From: a virus | Reading direction: 5' to 3' (one strand) | DNA: 27,576 bases | IMG/VR virus record: IMGVR_UViG_3300026078_000077 | Coordinates: 1-27,576 of that record | Shown: positions 206 through 27,576 of the stretch, one piece after another | How positions within the stretch are numbered: position 1 is the first letter of the stretch | How the letters are laid out: every line of letters starts with the position of its first letter | Made by a program: the position numbers and the translations under genes | Notes under the pieces: model-generated | The model's input: the letters and a program-made list of their open reading frames with translations, nothing else | Database searches by the model: none | Told to the model about the DNA's origin: nothing

Positions 206-453
206 GCGTACCCCTGCCCCTGGACGACCCGGCGCGGTGGATGCTGCATGACGGATTCACCACCACCCCTACGGTGTACCGGGCGAGCTGCTACATCTGC
301 CGGGACCCCGAGTTCGCGCAGATGGGCCTACCGCTGTGCTACCCGTGCTCGGAGTGCGGGGGGCACGTCCCCGCCGACGATGTTGAGTGCAGCGACTGCG
401 GATACGTCCACGAGCCTCCGACACCCGAGGGGGGCAGCTGTGCCCAAGGATAA
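202..453 (+). CDS. Small zinc-ribbon protein, unknown function
   Basis: 83 residues from a GTG that overlaps the previous stop (GTGA). The protein has three Cys pairs: CYIC near residue 30, CYPCSEC near residue 47, and CSDC near residue 63, an arrangement typical of zinc ribbons that bind nucleic acid or another protein. The gene ends 14 bp inside the polymerase gene, so the two are probably co-translated. A polymerase accessory role is only suggested by position. The family is not recognised. Confidence 0.7.
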   Translation: MSVPLPLDDPARWMLHDGFTTTPTVYRASCYICRDPEFAQMGLPLCYPCSECGGHVPADDVECSDCGYVHEPPTPEGGSCAQG

Positions 454-2797
454 CACCACCCGAGTCGGTGACGTCGAGCTGCCCGACCTCCCCCCGGGGG
501 CTTGGGTCGCGTATGACACTGAAACAAACGGATTGTTTACGGATGGCGACCCCGGCACCGACAGCGGCGACCCGGGGTCGCCTCCCGCGCGCGTGGCGAC
601 CGCCAGCATGGCCTATCGGGACCCGAATACCGGACAGGTCGTCAAGCACGCCTGGGGATTCGACCAGGGACCCCACCCCAGCAAGGACGGGCGAGTGCGG
701 CGCCCCCGGGAGGGGGGTGGCGTAGAGCCGCTGGATGTCGATAAGCTGCTGGCGAATCTGGCGAAGGCTGGATACAACAACGGCTGGCGGGACCAGATAG
801 GCAAATCGGGCAAGGTGCTCAAGACCCGGCTGGCGATTCCGTGGACGGTCGAGCAGTCGTACGAGGCGACCGGGCTGGATTCGTGGCTGCGTCTGTTGCG
901 CTGGCTGCGGGCGCGCGACCAGCTGGTGATGCACCACCGCAAGTTCGACGAGTGGGTGACGTTGGCCGGACCGCGCGACTGGCGCATCCGGTACGAGTGG
1001 AAGAACAACCCGGCGCTGCGGGCCGAATTCACCCCGCAGGAAGCGACCACCATCGACGTGCTGATGTCCGATCCGAACCGCGACATGGGTCCGCTGTTCG
1101 GCTGCAACCTGGACCTGGTCCCCGATGAGAACGGAGGACTGATCGAGCGTCCGATACGCGGGATCTGGGACACGATGCTGGTTCAGGCTTTCTTCGACCC
1201 GGACCACCCGGTGGCGCTGAAGAAGTCTGCCAAGCGACTGTTCGGAGTGGACGCCGACGCCGACCAGAAAGCACTGTTGGCGGCGATGTCCAAGCAGGGC
1301 ACCGGCCTGACCAAGCGTTACGACCTCACCCCCTGGTCGATCATGGGGCCGTACGCCGCCACCGACCCGGAGCTGACTTTGTTGCTGGCGGAGAACCAGC
1401 AGCGCCGGATCGCCGAGGGCGATCATCCGCCGAAGCACGACGAGCAGATCGACAAAGAGTTCGAACTCAGCCGGGTTCTGCTCAAGATGGAGCGGCGGGG
1501 GGTGGCGTATGACGTCCAGACGTCGCGCCGGGGCGCGCAGTTGCTGACGGCGGAGATGGAGCGGGTGCATGCACAGCTGCCGTACGACCCGACCAAGCTG
1601 GACGAGATCCGGAAGTTCTATTTCGCGCCGGAGGCCGAAGGTGGACTGGGTCTGGTTCCGCTGAAGCTGACCGATCAGACCGGTGTAGCCAGCGTGGACG
1701 AAGCCCAGATGCGGCTGTTGGTCCAGAGCGGCAAGCCATGGGCGGCCGAGTATGATGAGTGGTCGCACTGCAAGTCTGCGCTCGGCAAGTGGTATCGAGG
1801 ATGGGCCGAGCGCACCGGTCCGGACGGACGCCTGCGGACCAGCTTCAAGCAGTGTGTGATGGCGGAGGAGCGCGCCGGTGCTCGAAATGGCGGCACGATC
1901 TCCGGACGCCTGGCGGTCGGCCGGGTACAGTTGCAGGCCATCCCCCACAACAGCCAGCTTCCCACTCCCGTCCGGCACATTCCGGTTCGCAGCCTGATCG
2001 GAGCCAAAGAAGGTCACGCCCTGTACGAGATGGACCTGCCACAGGGCGAGGTCCGGATCGCCACAGTGGTGGTCAACTGCCAGGCGATGTGGGACGTGAT
2101 CGACTCGGGCGAGGACCTGCACGGCGCCAACGCCAAGCGGATCTTCGGTATCACCGAGGACCATCCGGACTACAAGGACCTGCGCGGCGTGGCCAAGCGG
2201 ATCGTGTTCGGCACGCTGTACGGGGCCGGGGTGCGGACGCTGCGGGCCCAGATCCTGGAGTACACCGGCATCGACTATTCGGAGAATGAGACCCGGGCGG
2301 CCAAGGAGGCGTTCGAAAGGACGTTCCCGGAGTTCCCTCGTGTCGCGCGCCGGATCCAGCGCAAGGCCGACCGCACGCTCGGCGGGCCGGGGTACGTGAC
2401 CCTGATCGACGGTCGGCGCCGCTGGTTCGGTCCGGACGAGTTCAGCCACAAGGCGTTCAACGCGGTGATTCAGGGCGGTCTGGCCCAGACTGGCAAGACC
2501 TGGATGATCGAGGTCGAGCGGCAGGTACCCGGCGTCCAGGTGCTGGCCATCCATGACAGCATCGTGGTTGAGGTGGAGGACAACGAGCGCGGTGTGGCGA
2601 TGGCGACGCGGGTTGCCGCCATTGGCAAGGAGGTCTACGAGCGCGACTACGGCATCCGTGGCCGCAAGATGTACTTCGACATCGTCCCGGAGCGTTGGGA
2701 CGAGAAGGAGCCGGTGCTGCCCGCCCTGGCCGACCAGGTCCGCGCCCAGCTTGGCGAATCGACGGCGATCGACAGACCGAAGGAGCTGACCGCGTGA
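440..2797 (+). CDS. Family A DNA polymerase with 3'-5' exonuclease domain (DpoZ candidate)
   Basis: About 785 residues. The frame is open further upstream, but the GTG at 440 follows a GAGGGGGG ribosome site by 5 nt and gives a natural N-terminus. The proofreading domain shows ExoI DTE (about residue 26), an ExoII-like HHRKFDEW (about 165) and ExoIII YAATDPELT (about 304). The polymerase domain shows motif A EMDLPQGEVR (about 530), motif B AKRIVFGTLYG (about 584) and motif C IHDS (about 704). It is Klenow-like with no 5' nuclease domain. Motif C has HDS where most family members have HDE; the metal-binding Asp is kept. The presence of a PurZ gene 2.3 kb downstream makes this a candidate for the DpoZ-type polymerases of aminoadenine phages, but that subfamily cannot be assigned by eye. 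The stop overlaps the next GTG. Confidence 0.92.
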   Translation: MPKDNTTRVGDVELPDLPPGAWVAYDTETNGLFTDGDPGTDSGDPGSPPARVATASMAYRDPNTGQVVKHAWGFDQGPHPSKDGRVRRPREGGGVEPLDVDKLLANLAKAGYNNGWRDQIGKSGKVLKTRLAIPWTVEQSYEATGLDSWLRLLRWLRARDQLVMHHRKFDEWVTLAGPRDWRIRYEWKNNPALRAEFTPQEATTIDVLMSDPNRDMGPLFGCNLDLVPDENGGLIERPIRGIWDTMLVQAFFDPDHPVALKKSAKRLFGVDADADQKALLAAMSKQGTGLTKRYDLTPWSIMGPYAATDPELTLLLAENQQRRIAEGDHPPKHDEQIDKEFELSRVLLKMERRGVAYDVQTSRRGAQLLTAEMERVHAQLPYDPTKLDEIRKFYFAPEAEGGLGLVPLKLTDQTGVASVDEAQMRLLVQSGKPWAAEYDEWSHCKSALGKWYRGWAERTGPDGRLRTSFKQCVMAEERAGARNGGTISGRLAVGRVQLQAIPHNSQLPTPVRHIPVRSLIGAKEGHALYEMDLPQGEVRIATVVVNCQAMWDVIDSGEDLHGANAKRIFGITEDHPDYKDLRGVAKRIVFGTLYGAGVRTLRAQILEYTGIDYSENETRAAKEAFERTFPEFPRVARRIQRKADRTLGGPGYVTLIDGRRRWFGPDEFSHKAFNAVIQGGLAQTGKTWMIEVERQVPGVQVLAIHDSIVVEVEDNERGVAMATRVAAIGKEVYERDYGIRGRKMYFDIVPERWDEKEPVLPALADQVRAQLGESTAIDRPKELTA

Positions 2798-3827: not shown

Positions 3828-3856
3828 GTGACAGTAACTTAGTAGTTGTGTGATAC
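3828..3856 (+). promoter_or_regulatory. Putative promoter for the HNH gene
   Basis: GTGACA (3828-3833), a 17-nt spacer and TGATAC (3851-3856) give a reasonable sigma-70-type promoter. The expected start point is only a few bases before the GTG at 3867, so the message would be nearly leaderless, as is common in actinobacteria. Confidence 0.4.
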
Positions 3857-3866
3857 CCTAGGTGTC

Positions 3867-4316
3867 GTGCCAACTAGAGAGTGTTGGGATTGCCACGAGA
3901 CAAAACCGGACACTGAGTTTAGAAAGCTGTACGACGGTAAAAATGGGGAAGTTCGGAGAAGAAGGTGCTTCAAGTGCGAACATCGACACCGAACTAGTAC
4001 CGAAGAAAAACGAAAAGCTCTTAACTCGGCCAAGACTAAATCCAGGAAGAACCTGTGGCTGCAGACGGTAGAAGCTTACGGCGGACAATGCACGTGTTGT
4101 GGCGAGAGTGAAGAAGCGTTCTTGGTTATAGACCACGTGAACGATGATGGGGCCGAACACCGCAGGAAACAAAGACCGAACAGTCCTAAATCCTGGTCGG
4201 GAAAAGCGTTGTACGGGTGGTTGAGGAAAAACTGCTGGCCCTCTGGATTCCAGTTGTTGTGTGCAAACTGCAACATGGCGAAAGCCCGGAAAGGAGGGTG
4301 CCCTCATGGTCGTTGA
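3867..4316 (+). CDS. HNH homing-type endonuclease
   Basis: About 149 residues from GTG 3867 (the frame is open to a TTG at 3846). An N-terminal CWDC...CFKC zinc-binding pair is followed by a basic linker and an HNH core: CTCCGE, VIDHVNDDG, a LYGWLRKNCWP helix and LLCANCNMAK. This layout matches free-standing phage HNH nucleases. Base composition is visibly richer in A and T than the neighbours, consistent with acquisition as a mobile gene. It ends 11 bp inside the start of a RuvC-like gene that is itself disrupted 38 bp further on. Confidence 0.85.
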   Translation: MPTRECWDCHETKPDTEFRKLYDGKNGEVRRRRCFKCEHRHRTSTEEKRKALNSAKTKSRKNLWLQTVEAYGGQCTCCGESEEAFLVIDHVNDDGAEHRRKQRPNSPKSWSGKALYGWLRKNCWPSGFQLLCANCNMAKARKGGCPHGR

Positions 4317-4820
4317 CTGGGGCTCGGGTTTGTTCTGGGCCATCGACCCTGGTTAGGTGAGTCCAAATGTGGCGTGGCGATCTTCGAGCGGGGCAGGTGT
4401 CTGCAGGCTCTGCGGTCCACGCCGATGGAATGTGTTGACAAGCTGTGGGAGCACCTCGGGTACGATCCGGACAGCCCGGTACGGCCCCATGGGGTCGTGC
4501 TGGAGCGGTTTGAGTTGCGCGGGGACCTGGCCCCGCAGCAGACAGGTAGCGAGATGGGCACTTCCCAGATGATCGGTGTGATCCGGTGGATGTGCCGCGT
4601 TACCGGCACGCCGGTGATGATGCAGACTCCCCGCCAGGCGTGGAGCTTGACCAACAACCCCGGGACCGAGCCGTTTCGTAGCTGGCCGCAGCGCCGATGG
4701 GCCAGCTACGGGCAAGGATCGGACGCCAAGATGGCCGAGCGGCACGGGTATTTCCGTATCTCGACCTCGTGGGCGACCTCGGCCGACCGCGAGGCTTGGC
4801 GCCAGTCGTTGCGGACTTGA
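4306..4820 (+). pseudogene. RuvC-like Holliday junction resolvase, frameshifted by 5 nt
   Basis: ATG 4306 has a strong AAAGGAGG upstream and opens a frame reading MVVDWGSGLFWAIDPG, the first catalytic motif of RuvC-type resolvases, then hits TAG at 4354. Removing the five bases TAGGT (4354-4358) joins this to ESKCGVAIFERG and a further 140 residues ending at 4820, giving a normal resolvase of about 169 residues. DPG-x3-CGVA fits the family without the insertion. Later features include VVLERFELRG (second acidic residue) and a SDAKMAERHG helix. A restart at GTG 4374 would lack the first catalytic Asp. Alternatives to a dead gene are a -1 ribosomal frameshift or a sequencing error. Confidence 0.75.
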
Positions 4821-5111: not shown

Positions 5112-6356
5112 GTGGCCAGCAAGCTGTTTGTTGTGGTCGGTGGGCAGTTCGGCTCCGAGGGCAAGGGGGCGGTGACCGGGCGCATCTGCGCCGACATGCA
5201 CGAGGCCGGGCGTGCAGTTACCAACGTGCGGGTCGGCGGGCCGAACGCGGGACACACGGTGCTGGGCCGATGCCCGAAAGGGTGTGACTTGTCCCATCGG
5301 GCCGCAGGTCCGGCAGGGACTTGGGCCCACCCCTGGCGGCTGCGGCAGGTGCCGGTGGGGGCGGTAACCGACCCAAAGTCCGCCTTGGTGATCGCTGCCG
5401 GGTCGGAGATCGATCCGGAGGTGCTGGCGGCCGAGATCCGAGAGCTGGAGGCGGCCGGATACGAGGCCGCCCAGCGGCTGTTCGTAGACAGGTCGGCGAC
5501 AGTTCTGACGCCTACGCATCGGATGATCGAGAAGGCCCGCCGTTTGTCCGATCGGATCGGATCGACAGCCAAGGGTATCGGGGCCGCACGGGTTGACCGC
5601 ATCTGGCGTACCGCTGAGATCTGGGGCGACTGGTCGGCTGCGGGAGAATTTCCTTCCGATATGCTGGTCTCAGACGCCCGGATGCTGCATAACCTGCAGG
5701 TCACAGACACGGCGGAAATGCTGCGGCGCGTACTGCGGGTAGACGATCATGCAGTAGTCATCGAGGGTACCCAGGGGTATGGGCTGGGACTGCACACCTC
5801 GAACTATCCGCACGTAACCTCGGGAAACTGCCGGGCGGTGGACTTCCTGGCGCAGGCGGGAGTCAGCCCCTGGCAGACGGACGCCGCCGGATGGAGTGTC
5901 GATCTGAAGGTGGTCGTGTGCTACCGGCCCTACCCGATCCGGGTCGCAGGTCCTTCGGGAAGACTGAAGGGTGAGACTACCTGGGACGCGCTCGGTCTTC
6001 CGGTCGAGCATACCACCGTGACTCAGAAGGTGCGCCGGGTCGGGCAGTGGGACCCGGAGCTGGCGCGGGAAGCGTGGCAGGCCAACGGTGGACCCCGGCA
6101 GGGGGTGGTGTGGGTGGCCTTGACCATGATGGACAGCGTGGAGCCGAAGCTGGCTGGGGCCAATCAGAACTTGCGCAATTGGACCGTCAATCAGAACTTG
6201 CGCAATTGGACCTCGGTGCAGGACGGCACGGACGGCGAACTGACGTTCGACACGGGTTCCAAGTACCTGGCCGACTTGGGGATCGGAGTGCAGCACCTGG
6301 GGTACGTCGGTACCGGTCCCGACACCGCGATAGTCAACGAGAGGATGTACGACTGA
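5112..6356 (+). CDS. purZ: PurZ-type aminoadenylosuccinate synthetase
   Basis: 414 residues from GTG 5112 (AAGGGAG 5 nt upstream; an in-frame GTG at 5094 is possible). The PurA fold is clear: P-loop GGQFGSEGKG, RVGGPNAGHT, GSTAKGIGAARVDRIWR, EGTQGYGLG, YPHVTSGN, and the late VRRVGQWD. Residue 15 (TCC, 5154-5156) is Ser where PurA has the catalytic Asp of GDEGKGK. Change of this Asp is the recognised mark of phage PurZ, which condenses dGMP with aspartate to make the precursor of 2-amino-dATP. The partner gene immediately downstream resembles MazZ. A 27-bp tandem duplication (6162-6212) adds nine residues near the C-terminal third. A plain PurA is the alternative, but the Ser argues against it. 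Confidence 0.88.
   Translation: MASKLFVVVGGQFGSEGKGAVTGRICADMHEAGRAVTNVRVGGPNAGHTVLGRCPKGCDLSHRAAGPAGTWAHPWRLRQVPVGAVTDPKSALVIAAGSEIDPEVLAAEIRELEAAGYEAAQRLFVDRSATVLTPTHRMIEKARRLSDRIGSTAKGIGAARVDRIWRTAEIWGDWSAAGEFPSDMLVSDARMLHNLQVTDTAEMLRRVLRVDDHAVVIEGTQGYGLGLHTSNYPHVTSGNCRAVDFLAQAGVSPWQTDAAGWSVDLKVVVCYRPYPIRVAGPSGRLKGETTWDALGLPVEHTTVTQKVRRVGQWDPELAREAWQANGGPRQGVVWVALTMMDSVEPKLAGANQNLRNWTVNQNLRNWTSVQDGTDGELTFDTGSKYLADLGIGVQHLGYVGTGPDTAIVNERMYD
6162..6212 (+). repeat. 27-bp tandem duplication inside purZ
   Basis: A 24-bp unit beginning AATCAGAACTTGCGC occurs at 6162-6185 and again, identical, at 6189-6212, separated by GTC; the period is 27 bp, so the frame is kept. The encoded NQNLRNWT is repeated with one Val between. 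The perfect identity suggests a recent replication-slippage event. Each unit contains the palindrome TTGCGCAA. Confidence 0.95.
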
Positions 6357-6853
6357 TGGCACAGCCGATGAGCCCGCAAGAGCGGGACGTGGTTCGCGCA
6401 CAGAATGAGGCGGAGCTGGCGGACGTGGCGGCCGGGTCCCTGACGCAGGTGTTCGGGGCGGTGGGTGAGAACAGCCTGGCGGAGTCGCTGGCCCAGCTCG
6501 GCCCCCGCACTAGCACCCACAGCACGAGGAGTCCGGGGGCAGACGCCGCCCCCAAGTTCGACGAGTGGGTCTCCCGCTGGATGGCCGACCACATTCCGGC
6601 GGCGATGGAGAAGGCCCAGGTCTACGGGTCCAACTCGCTGGCCAAGAAGGGACACCGGTTCGCGGCGGCGGGTGGCCGACAGGTCGAGCACGGACAGGCG
6701 TTGGAGCTGGGCGTGGCCCAGTACATCACTGAGAAGGCAGACCGGGTCGAGGACGCCATCCTGTGTGGTCGCCTGCCGAGCAACGACACCTGGGTCGACC
6801 TGGCGGTTTACGCTCTGATGGCCCAGTACATCCGCCAGCACGGCAGTTGGTGA
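6356..6853 (+). CDS. MazG/DUF1599-like nucleotide pyrophosphohydrolase (MazZ candidate)
   Basis: 165 residues from ATG 6356, which overlaps the purZ stop (TGATG). The N-terminal third is low-complexity; the C-terminal domain has the pattern K-x-x-R-x-E-D-A-I followed by NDTWVDLAVYALMAQY, typical of the all-alpha MazG-like / DUF1599 nucleotide-processing proteins. In aminoadenine phages MazZ converts (d)GTP to (d)GMP for PurZ and is commonly its neighbour, so this role fits the context. The first half of the metal site is less clear (ELGVAQYITEK), so the enzymatic class is inferred. Confidence 0.65.
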   Translation: MAQPMSPQERDVVRAQNEAELADVAAGSLTQVFGAVGENSLAESLAQLGPRTSTHSTRSPGADAAPKFDEWVSRWMADHIPAAMEKAQVYGSNSLAKKGHRFAAAGGRQVEHGQALELGVAQYITEKADRVEDAILCGRLPSNDTWVDLAVYALMAQYIRQHGSW

Positions 6854-7224
6854 CCGAGTCTGTTGGCCCGGCCACCCGGGCAAACGGTAAGAAAAAGCAG
6901 CGGGCGTCGGGGCGTAGCCCCGCACCCGAGGCAAGACACCTGCGGATACCGCAGACAGCCGCAGAACAGCTGTCTGCGGCGCTGAACTGGATAGACGTCG
7001 CCAGCAAAGGGCGACTCGGCCGGGATCTGATCGCGGCGGCGATGCGACACCGCCGCAGCGTGGGCACCGAGCCCGGCATCCTGATTGCGGCGGCGATTCA
7101 GTTCCTGATCTGCTCTGCGGATCGGGAGCCTGACAAGCTCAACCGGTACTGGACGCTGGTCAACCAGGTGTCAGCACGTGAGCGCGCCCGATATCTCAAC
7201 ATGGAAGAGAGTGAACTGCTTTGA
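6850..7224 (+). CDS. Unknown protein between mazZ-like gene and dut
   Basis: 124 residues from GTG 6850 (GTGA overlap). The first 35 residues are basic and probably disordered (RANGKKKQRASGRS); the rest looks helical, with GRLGRDLIAAAMRHRR and GILIAAAIQFLICSADR. There is no HD motif, so it is not a DatZ. It is co-transcribed with purZ and dut, which suggests but does not show a nucleotide or DNA role. Confidence 0.7.
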   Translation: MTESVGPATRANGKKKQRASGRSPAPEARHLRIPQTAAEQLSAALNWIDVASKGRLGRDLIAAAMRHRRSVGTEPGILIAAAIQFLICSADREPDKLNRYWTLVNQVSARERARYLNMEESELL

Positions 7225-7757
7225 GCGACGACAAGGGCAGCCTGCAGAGCCTCACGGAGACGCTTCGCAGGATGGGAGAAGCCATTCGCGAGGCGACCAA
7301 GCCCAAGCCGCTGGTGTTCGAGCCGGTGGGAGCCGACATGGTGGTCACCGCCGCCGGTCCGGTGCACCTGCTGCCGACTCGGGGGTACGCGGATGACGCC
7401 GGACTGGACCTGTACGTCTCAGTTGACGTCAAGATCCTGCCGTTCCAGTTCGTCGACGTCCCCAGCGGTGTCAAGATCGACGTGCCCGATGGGCTGTGGG
7501 GCATGATCACGGGGAGATCGTCGACCCTGCGCAACCGGGGGCTGCTGGTCAACCCCGGGGTGATCGACGCGGGGTGGACCGGGGAGCTGTTCGCGGGCGT
7601 GCAGAACATGACCGACAAGACGGTCGAGGTGGAGGCGGGCGACCGACTGGCCCAGCTGATCCTGCTGCCCGCTCCGGTGATCGGATACGACCCGGAATGG
7701 GGACAGGTGCGCGCGAAGGCGCGCGGGACCAACGGATTCGGGTCGACTGGCAGCTGA
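7221..7757 (+). CDS. dut: dUTPase (dUTP diphosphatase)
   Basis: 178 residues from a TTG at 7221 that overlaps the previous stop (TTGA). All five trimeric dUTPase motifs are visible in order: DAGLDLYV, GRSST, GVIDAGWTGEL, GDRLAQLIL and RGTNGFGSTG. Motif 3 has Trp where Tyr is usual. The enzyme hydrolyses dUTP to dUMP and keeps uracil out of phage DNA. About 45 extra N-terminal residues precede the core. It is the last gene of the operon, followed by a clear terminator. Confidence 0.93.
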   Translation: MSDDKGSLQSLTETLRRMGEAIREATKPKPLVFEPVGADMVVTAAGPVHLLPTRGYADDAGLDLYVSVDVKILPFQFVDVPSGVKIDVPDGLWGMITGRSSTLRNRGLLVNPGVIDAGWTGELFAGVQNMTDKTVEVEAGDRLAQLILLPAPVIGYDPEWGQVRAKARGTNGFGSTGS

Positions 7758-12816: not shown

Positions 12817-14073
12817 TCATCGCACCGGGATCACCGTGATCTCCGACTTGGCCAGGTCTTCGTTGACGATTCGCATCTCCACCCATTTCAGCTTGGGAGT
12901 ACGAACCCCGTCGCGCGGACCGTACCAGTAGGTGTGCCAGTGCGCCCGCCGGATGTGAGGACGGCGACGCTTGGCGGTGCCGACATCGAGTGACCCGGCA
13001 TGAACAATCTCCGTGCGCCTCTCGGCGGCCTTCGTGAGGATCGGGCCGACCCGATATCCCAGGTTATACGTCCGAGTCGGCGCGACATCCTTCTCGGCCT
13101 GCCGCTTGCCGTTCTTGCGGGGCCGTACCGTGATTGTGCGGCCGGTGTCCAGTTGCGTGTCGGCGTTCACCGAGCAGCAGTACATCACCACCGGCAGACA
13201 GACCTCCAAGATGGTGCGCGTCCACGCCTGGATCTGGTCCAGGCTTCCGCGATCGCTGCCTCTGGAGTCCCACCGGGACGCGCTGAGATGAGCCACCGAG
13301 TCGACTGTGAACGGCTGGTCCAGCGGGACCGACACTCCCGACAGGTCCCAGTCGTGCGGTGCCGCGTCTGGAGGGCCCAGTGAGGTCAACGCGCACAGTT
13401 GGTAGTGGGTTGCGCGTTCGTCGGCGGTCGAAATTGAGAATTGCCCGGTCCCCAGACCACGCAGGAAGAACGCTCGCATCACCCCCGGTTCCCCATTCCC
13501 CACGACGACTGGGACGCCGTGCGGCAGCAGGAATATCGGGTCATCGTGGGGCAGCTGGCGCAGAACCTGCGGCGGGATGAGTGTGCCACCCGGGTCGGTG
13601 TCGCGCAACGCCTGATGCAAGCCAGGGTCGACCGAATAGGCGACCCGGTGTCGCTCCCAGTTCAGGGCCAGCTGCACGTCGGACACCGAGCGCCGGACGT
13701 AGTCCTGGTTCTCTTCAGTCATCTGGCGCCAGACCGCGACCGCTCCCAACCACCGGGCCGAGTTTCGGGTCTGCGATCGGACGGTAGTGGCCAGCGGTTC
13801 CAGGTTGAACCGCCATAGTACCCCGCGTCCGACGTGGAAGTACGCGTCGACCAGATCCAGCATCCGACGTGTGGACACGACTGACGGCAGGGGGTGGTGT
13901 AGCATCTCAGTCTTGGCACCGTATGACTGGCGAGCCCGCTGCTGCTGGCACAGGACGATCCGCCGCACCTCTCGGGCTATCTCTTCCGGCGGGACGTTGC
14001 CCGGCGCTTTGTCGTTCATCACCTCGAACAGATTGAAGTCGATCGACTGTTTGGCTTCTCGATTCAGGTCCAC
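12817..14073 (-). CDS. AcrVA2-like protein (anti-CRISPR family candidate)
   Basis: 418 residues from GTG 14073 (GGAG 5 nt upstream; the frame is open to 14145 and an internal ATG lies at 14019). The C-terminal region carries RPHIRRAHWHTYWYG (residues 371-385) followed by LKWVEMRIVN, which I recognise from memory as the signature of AcrVA2 from Moraxella and its many relatives. Other matching segments are LPHDDPIFLLPHGVPVVVG and a hydrophobic stretch ending in a Cys pair (VVMYCCSVNAD). AcrVA2 blocks Cas12a production. Many relatives occur in genomes without Cas12a, so the role here is open. It is translated with the 14378 gene, overlapping by 10 bp. Contains an exact copy of the 12-bp motif. 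Confidence 0.65.
   Translation of the reverse strand: MDLNREAKQSIDFNLFEVMNDKAPGNVPPEEIAREVRRIVLCQQQRARQSYGAKTEMLHHPLPSVVSTRRMLDLVDAYFHVGRGVLWRFNLEPLATTVRSQTRNSARWLGAVAVWRQMTEENQDYVRRSVSDVQLALNWERHRVAYSVDPGLHQALRDTDPGGTLIPPQVLRQLPHDDPIFLLPHGVPVVVGNGEPGVMRAFFLRGLGTGQFSISTADERATHYQLCALTSLGPPDAAPHDWDLSGVSVPLDQPFTVDSVAHLSASRWDSRGSDRGSLDQIQAWTRTILEVCLPVVMYCCSVNADTQLDTGRTITVRPRKNGKRQAEKDVAPTRTYNLGYRVGPILTKAAERRTEIVHAGSLDVGTAKRRRPHIRRAHWHTYWYGPRDGVRTPKLKWVEMRIVNEDLAKSEITVIPVR
13890..13901 (+). repeat. 12-bp motif, exact copy
   Basis: GGGGGTGGTGTA on the plus strand, inside the minus-strand AcrVA2-like gene where it encodes part of LHHPLP. Here the motif points against the direction of transcription. 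Confidence 0.85.
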
Positions 14074-22990: not shown

Positions 22991-23527
22991 GTGAGTAAGA
23001 TTCCGCCTGCCGGGTCCATCGGGTTGGTCCGAATCAAAGGTCTAGTGGGCCAGGCCATCCGGGTCGGCCAGTTTTTGGACGGTGACGGCTTCCGAGACTT
23101 CGAGCATGCGTTCGTACTGTACCAGCGTGGTAGTTCGGCCGAGCTGTGTACCGTGGTCGAAGCCGAGCCCAGGGGCGCCCGTCTGGCCGGGCTGGATGAG
23201 TACAAGGGCCGACAGGTGCTGTGGCTGTCGTGCCCGGAGCAGTATGCCGCTTCAATGCTGGCCGCTGCGGTCACCTACGTCGGCGTACCGTACTCATTCA
23301 CCGACTACGTCACCGTCGCCGCCCACCACTTGCACTTGCCGGTGTCCAAGCTGCTGGAGTACGTGGTTGAACACAGCCATCACGTGGTGTGCTCTCAGCT
23401 GGTAGTCGCCTGCGCCGACAAGGCAGGTTGGCCGCTGCTGCCTGAGCACGACTGGCCGGGGTTTGTCACCCCTGGACGGCTGGCACAGCTGGCTGCGGCC
23501 GATGCTGAGCCGACCCTGGTCGAGTGA
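22991..23527 (+). CDS. Permuted papain-fold (YiiX/NlpC-P60-like) protein
   Basis: 178 residues from GTG 22991. FEHAFVLY (His 39) and VVCSQLVVACADKAG (Cys 134), with a Glu/Tyr-containing VVEAEP and VPYSFTDY between, follow the order His before Cys of the circularly permuted papain-like enzymes (YiiX/DUF830, NlpC/P60 superfamily). Members act on amide or thioester bonds in cell wall or lipid substrates. No signal peptide is seen. It overlaps the large terminase start, so it is co-expressed with packaging genes. The substrate is unknown. Confidence 0.65.
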   Translation: MSKIPPAGSIGLVRIKGLVGQAIRVGQFLDGDGFRDFEHAFVLYQRGSSAELCTVVEAEPRGARLAGLDEYKGRQVLWLSCPEQYAASMLAAAVTYVGVPYSFTDYVTVAAHHLHLPVSKLLEYVVEHSHHVVCSQLVVACADKAGWPLLPEHDWPGFVTPGRLAQLAAADAEPTLVE

Positions 23528-25227
23528 CTGTCACCGACACACCGGTCGAGGCTGTCGAGGACTTCCCTACCCGCATCATCCGGCCGTCTGAGCGTCTGGG
23601 GTACCTGGAGGGTGAGACCTCTGAGACGTTCGAGCCGGTGACGTACATCCGCTCAAAGGACATGGGGTGGAAGGGACGCCCCTCGATGCTGGCCGACCCC
23701 ACCGAGGCCGGATCTACTTATCGGCGCATCCAGACCAAGCTCGACCCGATGCTGTTTGCTCTGCTGTACCTGCGCGATCACTTGCGGGCCGAAGCCACTC
23801 GGGGCCAGATCACATTCTGCGACGCACATCTGGACTGGTGCCGTGAAGCGTTGGACTGGGTCCAGCCCACCAGCGGTCCCCGATCTGATCGAGATGTGTA
23901 CGTCGCCCCTCGTGAGCTGGGCAAGTCTACCTGGTTCTTTCTGATCCTGCCGCTGTGGGCGGCGGCACACGGGCACCGCAAGTTCATCGCCGCCTTCGCC
24001 GACGCGGGCACCCAGGCCGAGATGCACCTGCAGACCTTCAAGAACGAGCTGGAGAACAACCAGCTGTTGCAGCGGGACTTCCCGATGCTGTGCGAGCCCG
24101 CCACCCGCTACCGGGGCGCCACCCAGTCCGATACCAAGGGCCTGACCATCCGCAAGAGCGGATTCGTATTCGGTGCCCGAGGTGCGGACTCCAAGACTCT
24201 GGGCATGAAGGTCGGGCACCAGCGGCCCGACATGCTGATCCTGGACGACATCGAGCCGGGCGAAGACCAGTATTCCGAGTTCCAGGTGGGTGGCCGTCTG
24301 ACCACTATCACCGACGTCATCTTCCCGCTGTCCGAATACGCCCGCGTGGTGATCGCAGGTACGGTGACCCTGCCCGGTTCGATCATCCACCAGCTGGTAA
24401 AGAGCGTCACGGAGCCGCAGGAGGGCCACCCGGACTGGATCTCCGAGCAAAACATGCGGGTGCACTATTACCCGCCGATTCTGACCAATGACGACGGTAC
24501 CGAGCGCAGTATCTGGCCCGCCAAGTGGCCGATCACCTACTTGCAAGCCATCCGGCACACCCGGTCGTTCTTGAAGAACTTCGCCAACAGCCCGCTGGGC
24601 ATGGACGGCGATTACTGGACCAAGGACGACTTCCGGTATGGCAGGCTGTCCGGCAAGACCCGGGTGGTGCTCAGCATCGACCCGGCGGGCAAACTGAAGA
24701 AGACCTCCGACTGGACCGGCATGGCCGTGGTCGGCTGGGCGCCCCCGTTGCAGCCGAAGGACCCGCGCCGACAGGCGATCGATGCCGACGACATTCAGGC
24801 CGCTGTTCTGGGCAACCTTGGCATGTGCGAGGTGATGTACGCCCGTGCGGTAAAACTGGTAGGTGAGAAGCTGCGGGCCGAAGTTCTACGCATCTTGGAG
24901 ATGTTCCCCGAGATCGGCCTGGTGCTGGTCGAGATCAATCAGGGCCAGGAGCACTGGTACGACATTCTGCACCACCTCCCCTGCAAGATACAGCTGATCG
25001 ACCAGACGGTCGACAAACGAGTACGCGCGGCCGAATCCCTGGCCCACTACCAGCGGGGGAGGGTGGTGCACGCAGAGCGGCTTGGTGCGGCCGAGGAGCA
25101 GATGGTATCGTTCCCGCGCGGTCCCAACGACGACATGGTGGACGCGATAGGGTCGGCGGTGACCCGCCTGCTGCGTCGCAAGAAGGCCACCGGCATCCAG
25201 GCCCAGAATATCGGGTCATACGCGTGA
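23524..25227 (+). CDS. terL: Terminase large subunit
   Basis: 567 residues from GTG 23524 (GTGA overlap). The ATPase half shows APRELGKST (residues 128-136, Walker A-like) and PDMLILDDIE (Walker B). The nuclease half shows SIDPAGK (about 384), VLVEINQGQ (about 468) and NDDMVDAIG (about 534), the acidic residues of the RNase H-like nuclease. It cuts phage concatemers and pumps DNA into the prohead; the portal gene follows at 27.2 kb. A 10/12 motif copy lies at 25059-25070. The protein is complete. Confidence 0.93.
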   Translation: MTVTDTPVEAVEDFPTRIIRPSERLGYLEGETSETFEPVTYIRSKDMGWKGRPSMLADPTEAGSTYRRIQTKLDPMLFALLYLRDHLRAEATRGQITFCDAHLDWCREALDWVQPTSGPRSDRDVYVAPRELGKSTWFFLILPLWAAAHGHRKFIAAFADAGTQAEMHLQTFKNELENNQLLQRDFPMLCEPATRYRGATQSDTKGLTIRKSGFVFGARGADSKTLGMKVGHQRPDMLILDDIEPGEDQYSEFQVGGRLTTITDVIFPLSEYARVVIAGTVTLPGSIIHQLVKSVTEPQEGHPDWISEQNMRVHYYPPILTNDDGTERSIWPAKWPITYLQAIRHTRSFLKNFANSPLGMDGDYWTKDDFRYGRLSGKTRVVLSIDPAGKLKKTSDWTGMAVVGWAPPLQPKDPRRQAIDADDIQAAVLGNLGMCEVMYARAVKLVGEKLRAEVLRILEMFPEIGLVLVEINQGQEHWYDILHHLPCKIQLIDQTVDKRVRAAESLAHYQRGRVVHAERLGAAEEQMVSFPRGPNDDMVDAIGSAVTRLLRRKKATGIQAQNIGSYA

Positions 25228-27201: not shown

Positions 27202-27576
27202 GTGGCGGACCCCACTGAGGTGACGCTGGCTGCCAGCCAGGACCTGATGGAGGGGCTGCAGGTCCTAGCCAACTCGCTGCCGGACTATCACCGGGCCGAG
27301 ATGTACTACGAGGCCACCAATCCGGAGTTCTTCGCCAGCATCCGGTTGCGGCGGGCGCTCGAACGGACGGGTATTACTTTCCGATTCAACATGGCCAAGA
27401 CTCCAGTCGACGTGATGGCCGACCGGCTGGAGATCCACGCCGTCCAGGTGGCAGGAGACAACCGGGCCGACCAGATCCTGCAGGAGATCTGGGAACGAAA
27501 CATGATGGAGCTGGAATCGACCAACATCCACCGCCGCGCGGGGGAGTTCGGCGACGCCTATCTGATCGTGTGGCCG
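27202..27576 (+). CDS. Portal protein, N-terminal part (partial)
   Basis: 125 codons from GTG 27202 (AGGAGG 9 nt upstream) to the right edge. AEMYYEATNPEF, TPVDVMADRLEIHAV, then ADQILQEIWERNMMELES and HRRAGEFGDAYLIVWP follow the start of SPP1 gp6-like portals, which form the ring through which terminase packs DNA. The gene continues outside the window. The 83 bp before it contain no clear promoter. Confidence 0.85.
   Translation, partial: MADPTEVTLAASQDLMEGLQVLANSLPDYHRAEMYYEATNPEFFASIRLRRALERTGITFRFNMAKTPVDVMADRLEIHAVQVAGDNRADQILQEIWERNMMELESTNIHRRAGEFGDAYLIVWP

Follow-up and report, generated by a model that had tools for sequence, protein, structure and literature searches.

The window, meaning the whole stretch of DNA that was analysed, is a viral record of 27,576 bases with 64% G+C that probably derives from an actinobacterial tailed phage. 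A terminase gene lies at 23524-25227, and a portal gene begins at 27202. Megablast of the whole window against the phage collection returned no match. On the minus strand, a 418-aa gene (12817-14073) without an assigned function matches phrog_6160. The locus studied here comprises the following genes and features:

248..2797, plus strand: family A DNA polymerase, closest to the Wayne-type DpoZ, starting at 248 or 440
3846..4316, plus strand: HNH/endonuclease VII-like protein, homologue of the Wayne HNH gene that lies between polymerase and purZ0
4374..4820, plus strand: conserved protein encoded ahead of purZ0, a homologue of Galactica gp60 (which is annotated as a Cas4 family exonuclease), also present in L003, L004 and Ghobes
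5112..6356, plus strand: PurZ0-type succino-2-amino-deoxyadenylate synthetase, 414 aa, predicted to convert dGMP and Asp to dSMP (NF038379 PurZ, phrog_1211, PurZ0 clade, pocket residues)
6162..6212, plus strand: in-frame tandem duplication inside purZ0, seen in the window only (a 24-base stretch at 6162 recurs unchanged at 6189, period 27)
6356..6853, plus strand: ORF2, 165 aa, a purZ0-partner family without annotation and a predicted dGTP/dATP pyrophosphohydrolase (linkage, hhalign, structure models, Foldseek)
6850..7224, plus strand: small helical protein, 124 aa, kept in the close relatives of the window (GTGA overlap with ORF2)
7221..7757, plus strand: DutZ homologue with dUTPase fold, starting at TTG 7221 or ATG 7272

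The synthetase gene starts with GTG. The original prediction had described its product as a PurA homologue with Ser at the catalytic Asp position, and the coordinates given for that codon (5154-5156) proved exact: TCC encodes Ser15, within GGQFGSEGKG, which corresponds to GTQWGDEGKG in E. coli PurA. Homology to the PurA/PurZ family lies far above chance (Pfam PF00709, 1.1e-33; PHROG 1211, 1.3e-79), and the best PDB match is 7vf6, a 'PurA-like adenylosuccinate synthetase' (2e-79). The product passes the curated NCBIfam PurZ model NF038379 (316.5 bits, cut-off 300) and stays below the cut-offs of all NCBIfam PurA models. The phylogeny against PurZ and PurA that had been proposed as a check was run as a maximum-likelihood tree of 65 sequences, a quick tree with SH-aLRT support only in which E. 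coli PurA is a long branch. It established membership of the window sequence in the PurZ0 clade (support 100), which also contains Wayne, Ghobes, Theresita, Olihed, Goodman and Galactica, and grouped it with the related contigs L003, L004, L015 and L012 at 99. The PurZ proteins of S-2L, VP5, SH-Ab, PSA28 and Bm1, as well as cellular PurZ-like proteins, fall outside this clade. Ser15, N45, A46, T152, R166, Q221, R277, V278, T301 and R308 match the substrate (dGMP) pocket of S-2L PurZ; since many of them are common to PurA, the weight of the assignment lies on Ser15 and the clade. In the phosphate-donor site, Thr338, Met339 and Asp341 are the same as in Wayne. Assignment of the gene to the PurZ0 (Wayne/Ghobes) subgroup of PurZ is thus well supported by its sequence.

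The insert that follows the NAGHT motif of PurZ0 (window 5256-5343) displays a conserved CPxxC...H...HPW[RK]L pattern. The CPxxC...H insert also occurs in L003, L004, L006, L009, L017, L018, L022 and others, is absent in Wayne and Ghobes, and might form a metal-binding knuckle close to the nucleotide site.

As originally described, the synthetase and the second gene overlap: the purZ0 stop (TGA, 6354-6356) shares one base with the ATG (6356-6358) that opens ORF2. The GTG at 6850 in turn overlaps the ORF2 stop and opens the 124-aa gene, which is followed by the dUTPase-fold gene ending at 7757. The original prediction had listed three parts known from Z-genome phages and had missed this last one, a DutZ homologue at about 7221-7757 that is a known member of the PurZ0 set. 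Its product matches PF00692 (9e-27) and phrog_135 (3e-40), and shares 57% identity with the C-terminal domain of Wayne DmtZ-DutZ and 50% with Ghobes DutZ. The DutZ motif GVIDAGWTGEL (window 7374-7754) carries Trp at a position that is Tyr in Wayne and Ghobes; L004 shares the Trp.

Using the proteins of Ghobes, Wayne, Galactica and Theresita as tblastn queries, we found homologues of PolA, PurZ0 and DutZ of all four phages in the window, together with homologues of the ORF2 proteins of Ghobes, Galactica and Theresita (not Wayne). The long related contigs L003 and L004 gave the same result. PolA, PurZ0 and DutZ follow each other in the window as in Gordonia phage Ghobes, Arthrobacter phage Wayne and Streptomyces phage Galactica (PMC12884076), whose PurZ0 proteins are 43-53% identical to that of the window, and the order purZ0-ORF2-(small)-(dmtZ)-dutZ recurs across the PurZ0-containing IMG/VR contigs. 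At the level of sequence, these comparisons establish the identities of the genes and the conservation of the operon. Unlike the Ghobes, Wayne and Galactica clusters, the window gave no DmtZ match by tblastn. DmtZ is present in 72 of 80 PurZ0 contigs, and dmtZ is also missing from L003, L009, L014, L033, L066, L070 and Theresita. Among published PurZ0 genomes, all carry dutZ and 85 of 98 carry dmtZ (PMC12884076); as the remaining 13 do without it, its absence from the window is inside the known range. Ghobes and Galactica (L005, L006) have an annotated adenylosuccinate lyase of their own; a homologue was not found in the window fragment, and neither was DatZ. The Z-clusters of S-2L and SH-Ab (PurZ, MazZ or DUF550-DUF5664, DatZ) follow a similar logic, with a synthetase beside dNTP phosphohydrolases, but differ in having PurZ instead of PurZ0 and in the presence of DatZ. 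The window cluster is a PurZ0-type Z-DNA cluster, a known system, and what is new in it is ORF2, a purZ0 partner without annotation.

Two rival readings concern the synthetase and the state of the cluster, and we consider both very improbable. The 5112 product could be a plain PurA that uses IMP, in which case the gene would serve metabolism and have nothing to do with Z DNA. Most of its pocket residues are indeed common to E. coli PurA, and Asp341 stands at what we take to be the guanine-recognition position of PurA. This reading has to face the Ser at the catalytic Asp, the PurZ model passed where all PurA models failed, the placement in the PurZ0 clade and the presence of Z-phage genes as partners. 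Alternatively, the cluster could be decaying in this individual, having lost dmtZ and acquired a 27-base duplication in PurZ0. The duplication was found in the window only (relatives, L003 and L004 among them, do not have it) and may be real or an assembly artefact, and a DmtZ match is lacking. Yet every frame is open, the 24-base repeat at 27-base spacing is in frame and near the variable C-terminus of PurZ0, and dmtZ is missing as well from the seven relatives named above and from the 13 published genomes. The curated model, the phylogeny, the dGMP-pocket residues and the operon together make the PurZ assignment, and hence a 2-aminoadenine pathway, well supported.

The family A polymerase that had been noted upstream is indeed there (PF00476, 5e-32, for the 248/440-2797 frame). 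Its listing as a Z-phage part held in so far as NF038381 (DpoZ_2) is its best NCBIfam match, and was weakened by a score of 251.7 bits, below the curated cut-off of 350, and by the Tyr kept in its helix O (AKRIVFGTLYGAG), where characterised DpoZ have Phe. The window and Galactica polymerases share 42% identity and also this Tyr, which those of Wayne and Ghobes lack. Tyr is also kept in L003, L004, L006 and most other PurZ0 contigs, and Phe was found in Wayne, Ghobes, Theresita, L073 and L081. With Tyr in most PurZ0-linked polymerases and Phe in few lineages, Phe does not mark PurZ0 phages in general. Of the changes that characterise DpoZ, Tyr-to-Phe in helix O has been described as the only one found in both clades, and the same authors doubted that a single residue controls selectivity (PMC8599892). 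This leaves two possibilities: the Tyr-bearing PurZ0-linked polymerases have no selectivity for Z, or the residue is immaterial to it. From its sequence, the window polymerase is probably a relative of DpoZ.

The gene downstream of purZ0 belongs to a family that accompanies it almost everywhere. ORF2 lies directly after purZ0 in 74 of 80 viral PurZ0 contigs, a non-independent sample with many close relatives. In five of the 80, all Arthrobacter-type, DUF5664 occupies the slot and ORF2 is absent, and a single contig (L081) has neither; the two were never found together in this set. Wayne likewise has DUF5664 where the window has ORF2. In the reverse direction, scans seeded with ORF2 found PurZ in 86 of 88 loci, and in the remaining two the contig begins within or just before ORF2. 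These 88 loci overlap the 80-contig set, and the search patterns came from PurZ0-linked members, so wider relatives of ORF2 could exist outside PurZ0 phages. The 'hypothetical protein' annotated directly after PurZ0 in Ghobes (gp51), Sapo, Frizzle, Archimedes, Galactica (gp66), Hiyaa, Spocter, Keanu, Theresita and Olihed is a homologue of ORF2, and Goodman has one as well. The linkage between ORF2 and purZ0 is thereby established from gene order.

The second gene had been called a MazG/DUF1599-like pyrophosphohydrolase and the MazZ-like half of the pair. The latter claim failed: hhalign gave a probability of 0.3% to S-2L MazZ (against a single MazZ sequence, which limits sensitivity), and the ExxE...ExxD metal-binding acids of MazG were not found among the conserved residues of ORF2. 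The former found no support in single-sequence searches of Pfam, PHROGs, NCBIfam, PADLOC and PDB, none of which returned a match, and is plausible at the superfamily level through profiles. Indeed, the ORF2 profile reached an hhalign probability of 88% to DUF6378 (PF19905) and 15% to DUF1599, with comparison sets that are small (6 and 7 sequences), and YG, K..R and D...D...Y motifs are in register in both alignments. The score to DUF6378 was 42.9, where the best of 100 column shuffles reached 20.9; to DUF1599 it was 26.2 for a best shuffle of 17.4, and none of 100 scored as high. Although the motif pattern is common to DUF6378 and ORF2, the latter is tied to purZ0, unlike DUF6378, and no ORF2 member reached the Pfam gathering cut-off for PF19905 (best E 0.053). 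DUF550 and DUF5664 were rejected as relatives (hhalign 0.1-0.2%, no Pfam match), either half of the SH-Ab protein gave 0.1-0.2% and DutZ 0.1-0.3%.

K86, Y90, G91, L95, G99, Y123, K127, R130, D144, D148 and Y152 are invariant in the ORF2 family and E117 almost so; of its acids, only E117, D144 and D148 reach this level of conservation. Modelling predicts four helices for the core (residues about 67-165) with a pLDDT of 91.7; trimming to it raised the pLDDT from 85.7 and did not raise the significance of PDB matches. Beyond the family itself, the viral Foldseek neighbours are largely DUF6378 and nucleotide-modification-associated proteins (E of at least 0.08). The leading and most frequent PDB fold neighbour is the MazG-like dUTP pyrophosphohydrolase DR2231, an all-alpha four-helix domain like ORF2, although the match is weak (E 1.6, TM 0.42) and the catalytic acid motif of DR2231 was not found in ORF2. 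PDB profile matches to designed helical repeats and adenosine kinase, at marginal E, were rejected as due to helical composition. Kinship of ORF2 with the DUF6378/DUF1599 superfamily is thus supported, mainly by sequence profiles, and the fold evidence is consistent with it. Eight family members also match phrog_474, 'phosphofructokinase'. Because the mycobacteriophage proteins with this label (for example NC_021297 gp53, L179) match a DUF6378 protein, we read the label as a misannotation, one that looks to have spread through databases, and not as a kinase function.

Two points of the pathway admit a serious alternative. ORF2 might not be a pyrophosphohydrolase and could instead assist PurZ0 or DutZ in a structural or regulatory role, serve as an accessory to a kinase, or represent a degenerate, non-catalytic four-helix domain. 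The canonical MazG acids are absent, Pfam, NCBIfam and PDB gave no sequence match, and we found no paper that tests a function for DUF6378; we give this alternative about one chance in three. What tilts the balance is an invariant polar set (K86, K127, R130, D144 and D148, with E117 nearly so) and a slot that is that of the tested enzyme DUF5664, with which ORF2 never co-occurs in the 80 contigs. With the MazG acids missing, catalysis is inferred from this shared slot, and by analogy we marginally favour ORF2 as a dGTP/dATP pyrophosphohydrolase. For the polymerase, dZTP could be made and not selected, giving mixed A/Z DNA or DNA that is Z-rich only through pool depletion. The helix O Tyr, as in ordinary PolA and most PurZ0-contig polymerases, and the score under the DpoZ cut-off agree with this, and S-2L is described in PMC8342488 and PMC8065100 as likewise relying on a non-selective polymerase. 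Nevertheless, DpoZ_2 is still the best match, the authors' doubts on single-residue selectivity apply here too, and DutZ alone may deplete dATP fully; we judge a non-selective polymerase rather unlikely and expect, with some reserve, that the window polymerase prefers dZTP.

We therefore read the operon at 5112-7757, very probably and as a whole, as a PurZ0-type cluster for DNA containing 2-aminoadenine (Z). With activities that for PurZ0 and DutZ are inferred from characterised relatives, PurZ0 would join dGMP and aspartate into dSMP, which an adenylosuccinate lyase and kinases, from the host or from phage genes outside the fragment, would turn into dZTP for the upstream family A polymerase to put into DNA. 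DutZ would shape the pool by removing dATP and part of the dGTP; DUF5664 and DutZ have both been measured to convert dATP and dGTP to monophosphates (PMC12884076). ORF2, in the slot of the Wayne-like DUF5664, would probably hydrolyse dGTP, dATP or both to monophosphates and so supply PurZ0 with dGMP. The reading is limited by the missing ExxE...ExxD and weak DR2231 match of ORF2, by the Tyr and sub-threshold DpoZ score of the polymerase, and further by the lack of a local DmtZ, the unique in-frame PurZ0 duplication and a contig that is a 27.6 kb fragment. The original claim that adenine is replaced by 2-aminoadenine accordingly survives without its MazZ component, as a strong prediction from the PurZ0 cluster: from the genes alone, we consider 2-aminoadenine in virion DNA highly likely.

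In Z-DNA phages, the nucleotide pool is remodelled to exchange one letter of the genetic alphabet for another base. The pool enzymes published for PurZ0 phages are DutZ, DmtZ and DUF5664, the last reported for Arthrobacter phages (PMC12884076), and our data on ORF2 point to another, nearly universal partner of PurZ0. Tentatively, and at slightly less than even chances, ORF2 would represent a further dGTP/dATP pyrophosphohydrolase family of Z phages, independently recruited from DUF6378/DUF1599, with a non-MazG set of acids and acting as the standard PurZ0 partner to which the DUF5664 of Wayne is the exception. As homologues are annotated as hypothetical in Ghobes and Galactica, isolates exist in which ORF2 can be tested. 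Many PurZ0-linked polymerases lack the one residue that the two DpoZ clades are reported to share, and this makes the choice of Z over A directly testable as well.

Finally, PurZ-like synthetase cassettes with Ser at the catalytic position were observed in cellular bacteria and archaea of many phyla (L091-L158; for example L119:926-6789 and L136:1962-6349), where the Ser is partly due to selection because these loci were found with PurZ0-derived patterns. They gave weak PADLOC matches only. Upstream of the synthetase lies an RNase_H_2 protein, which in L136 is fused to a kinase-like AAA_18 domain; downstream follows a dCTP-deaminase/dUTPase-like protein. All three genes are present in 43 of 69 loci.
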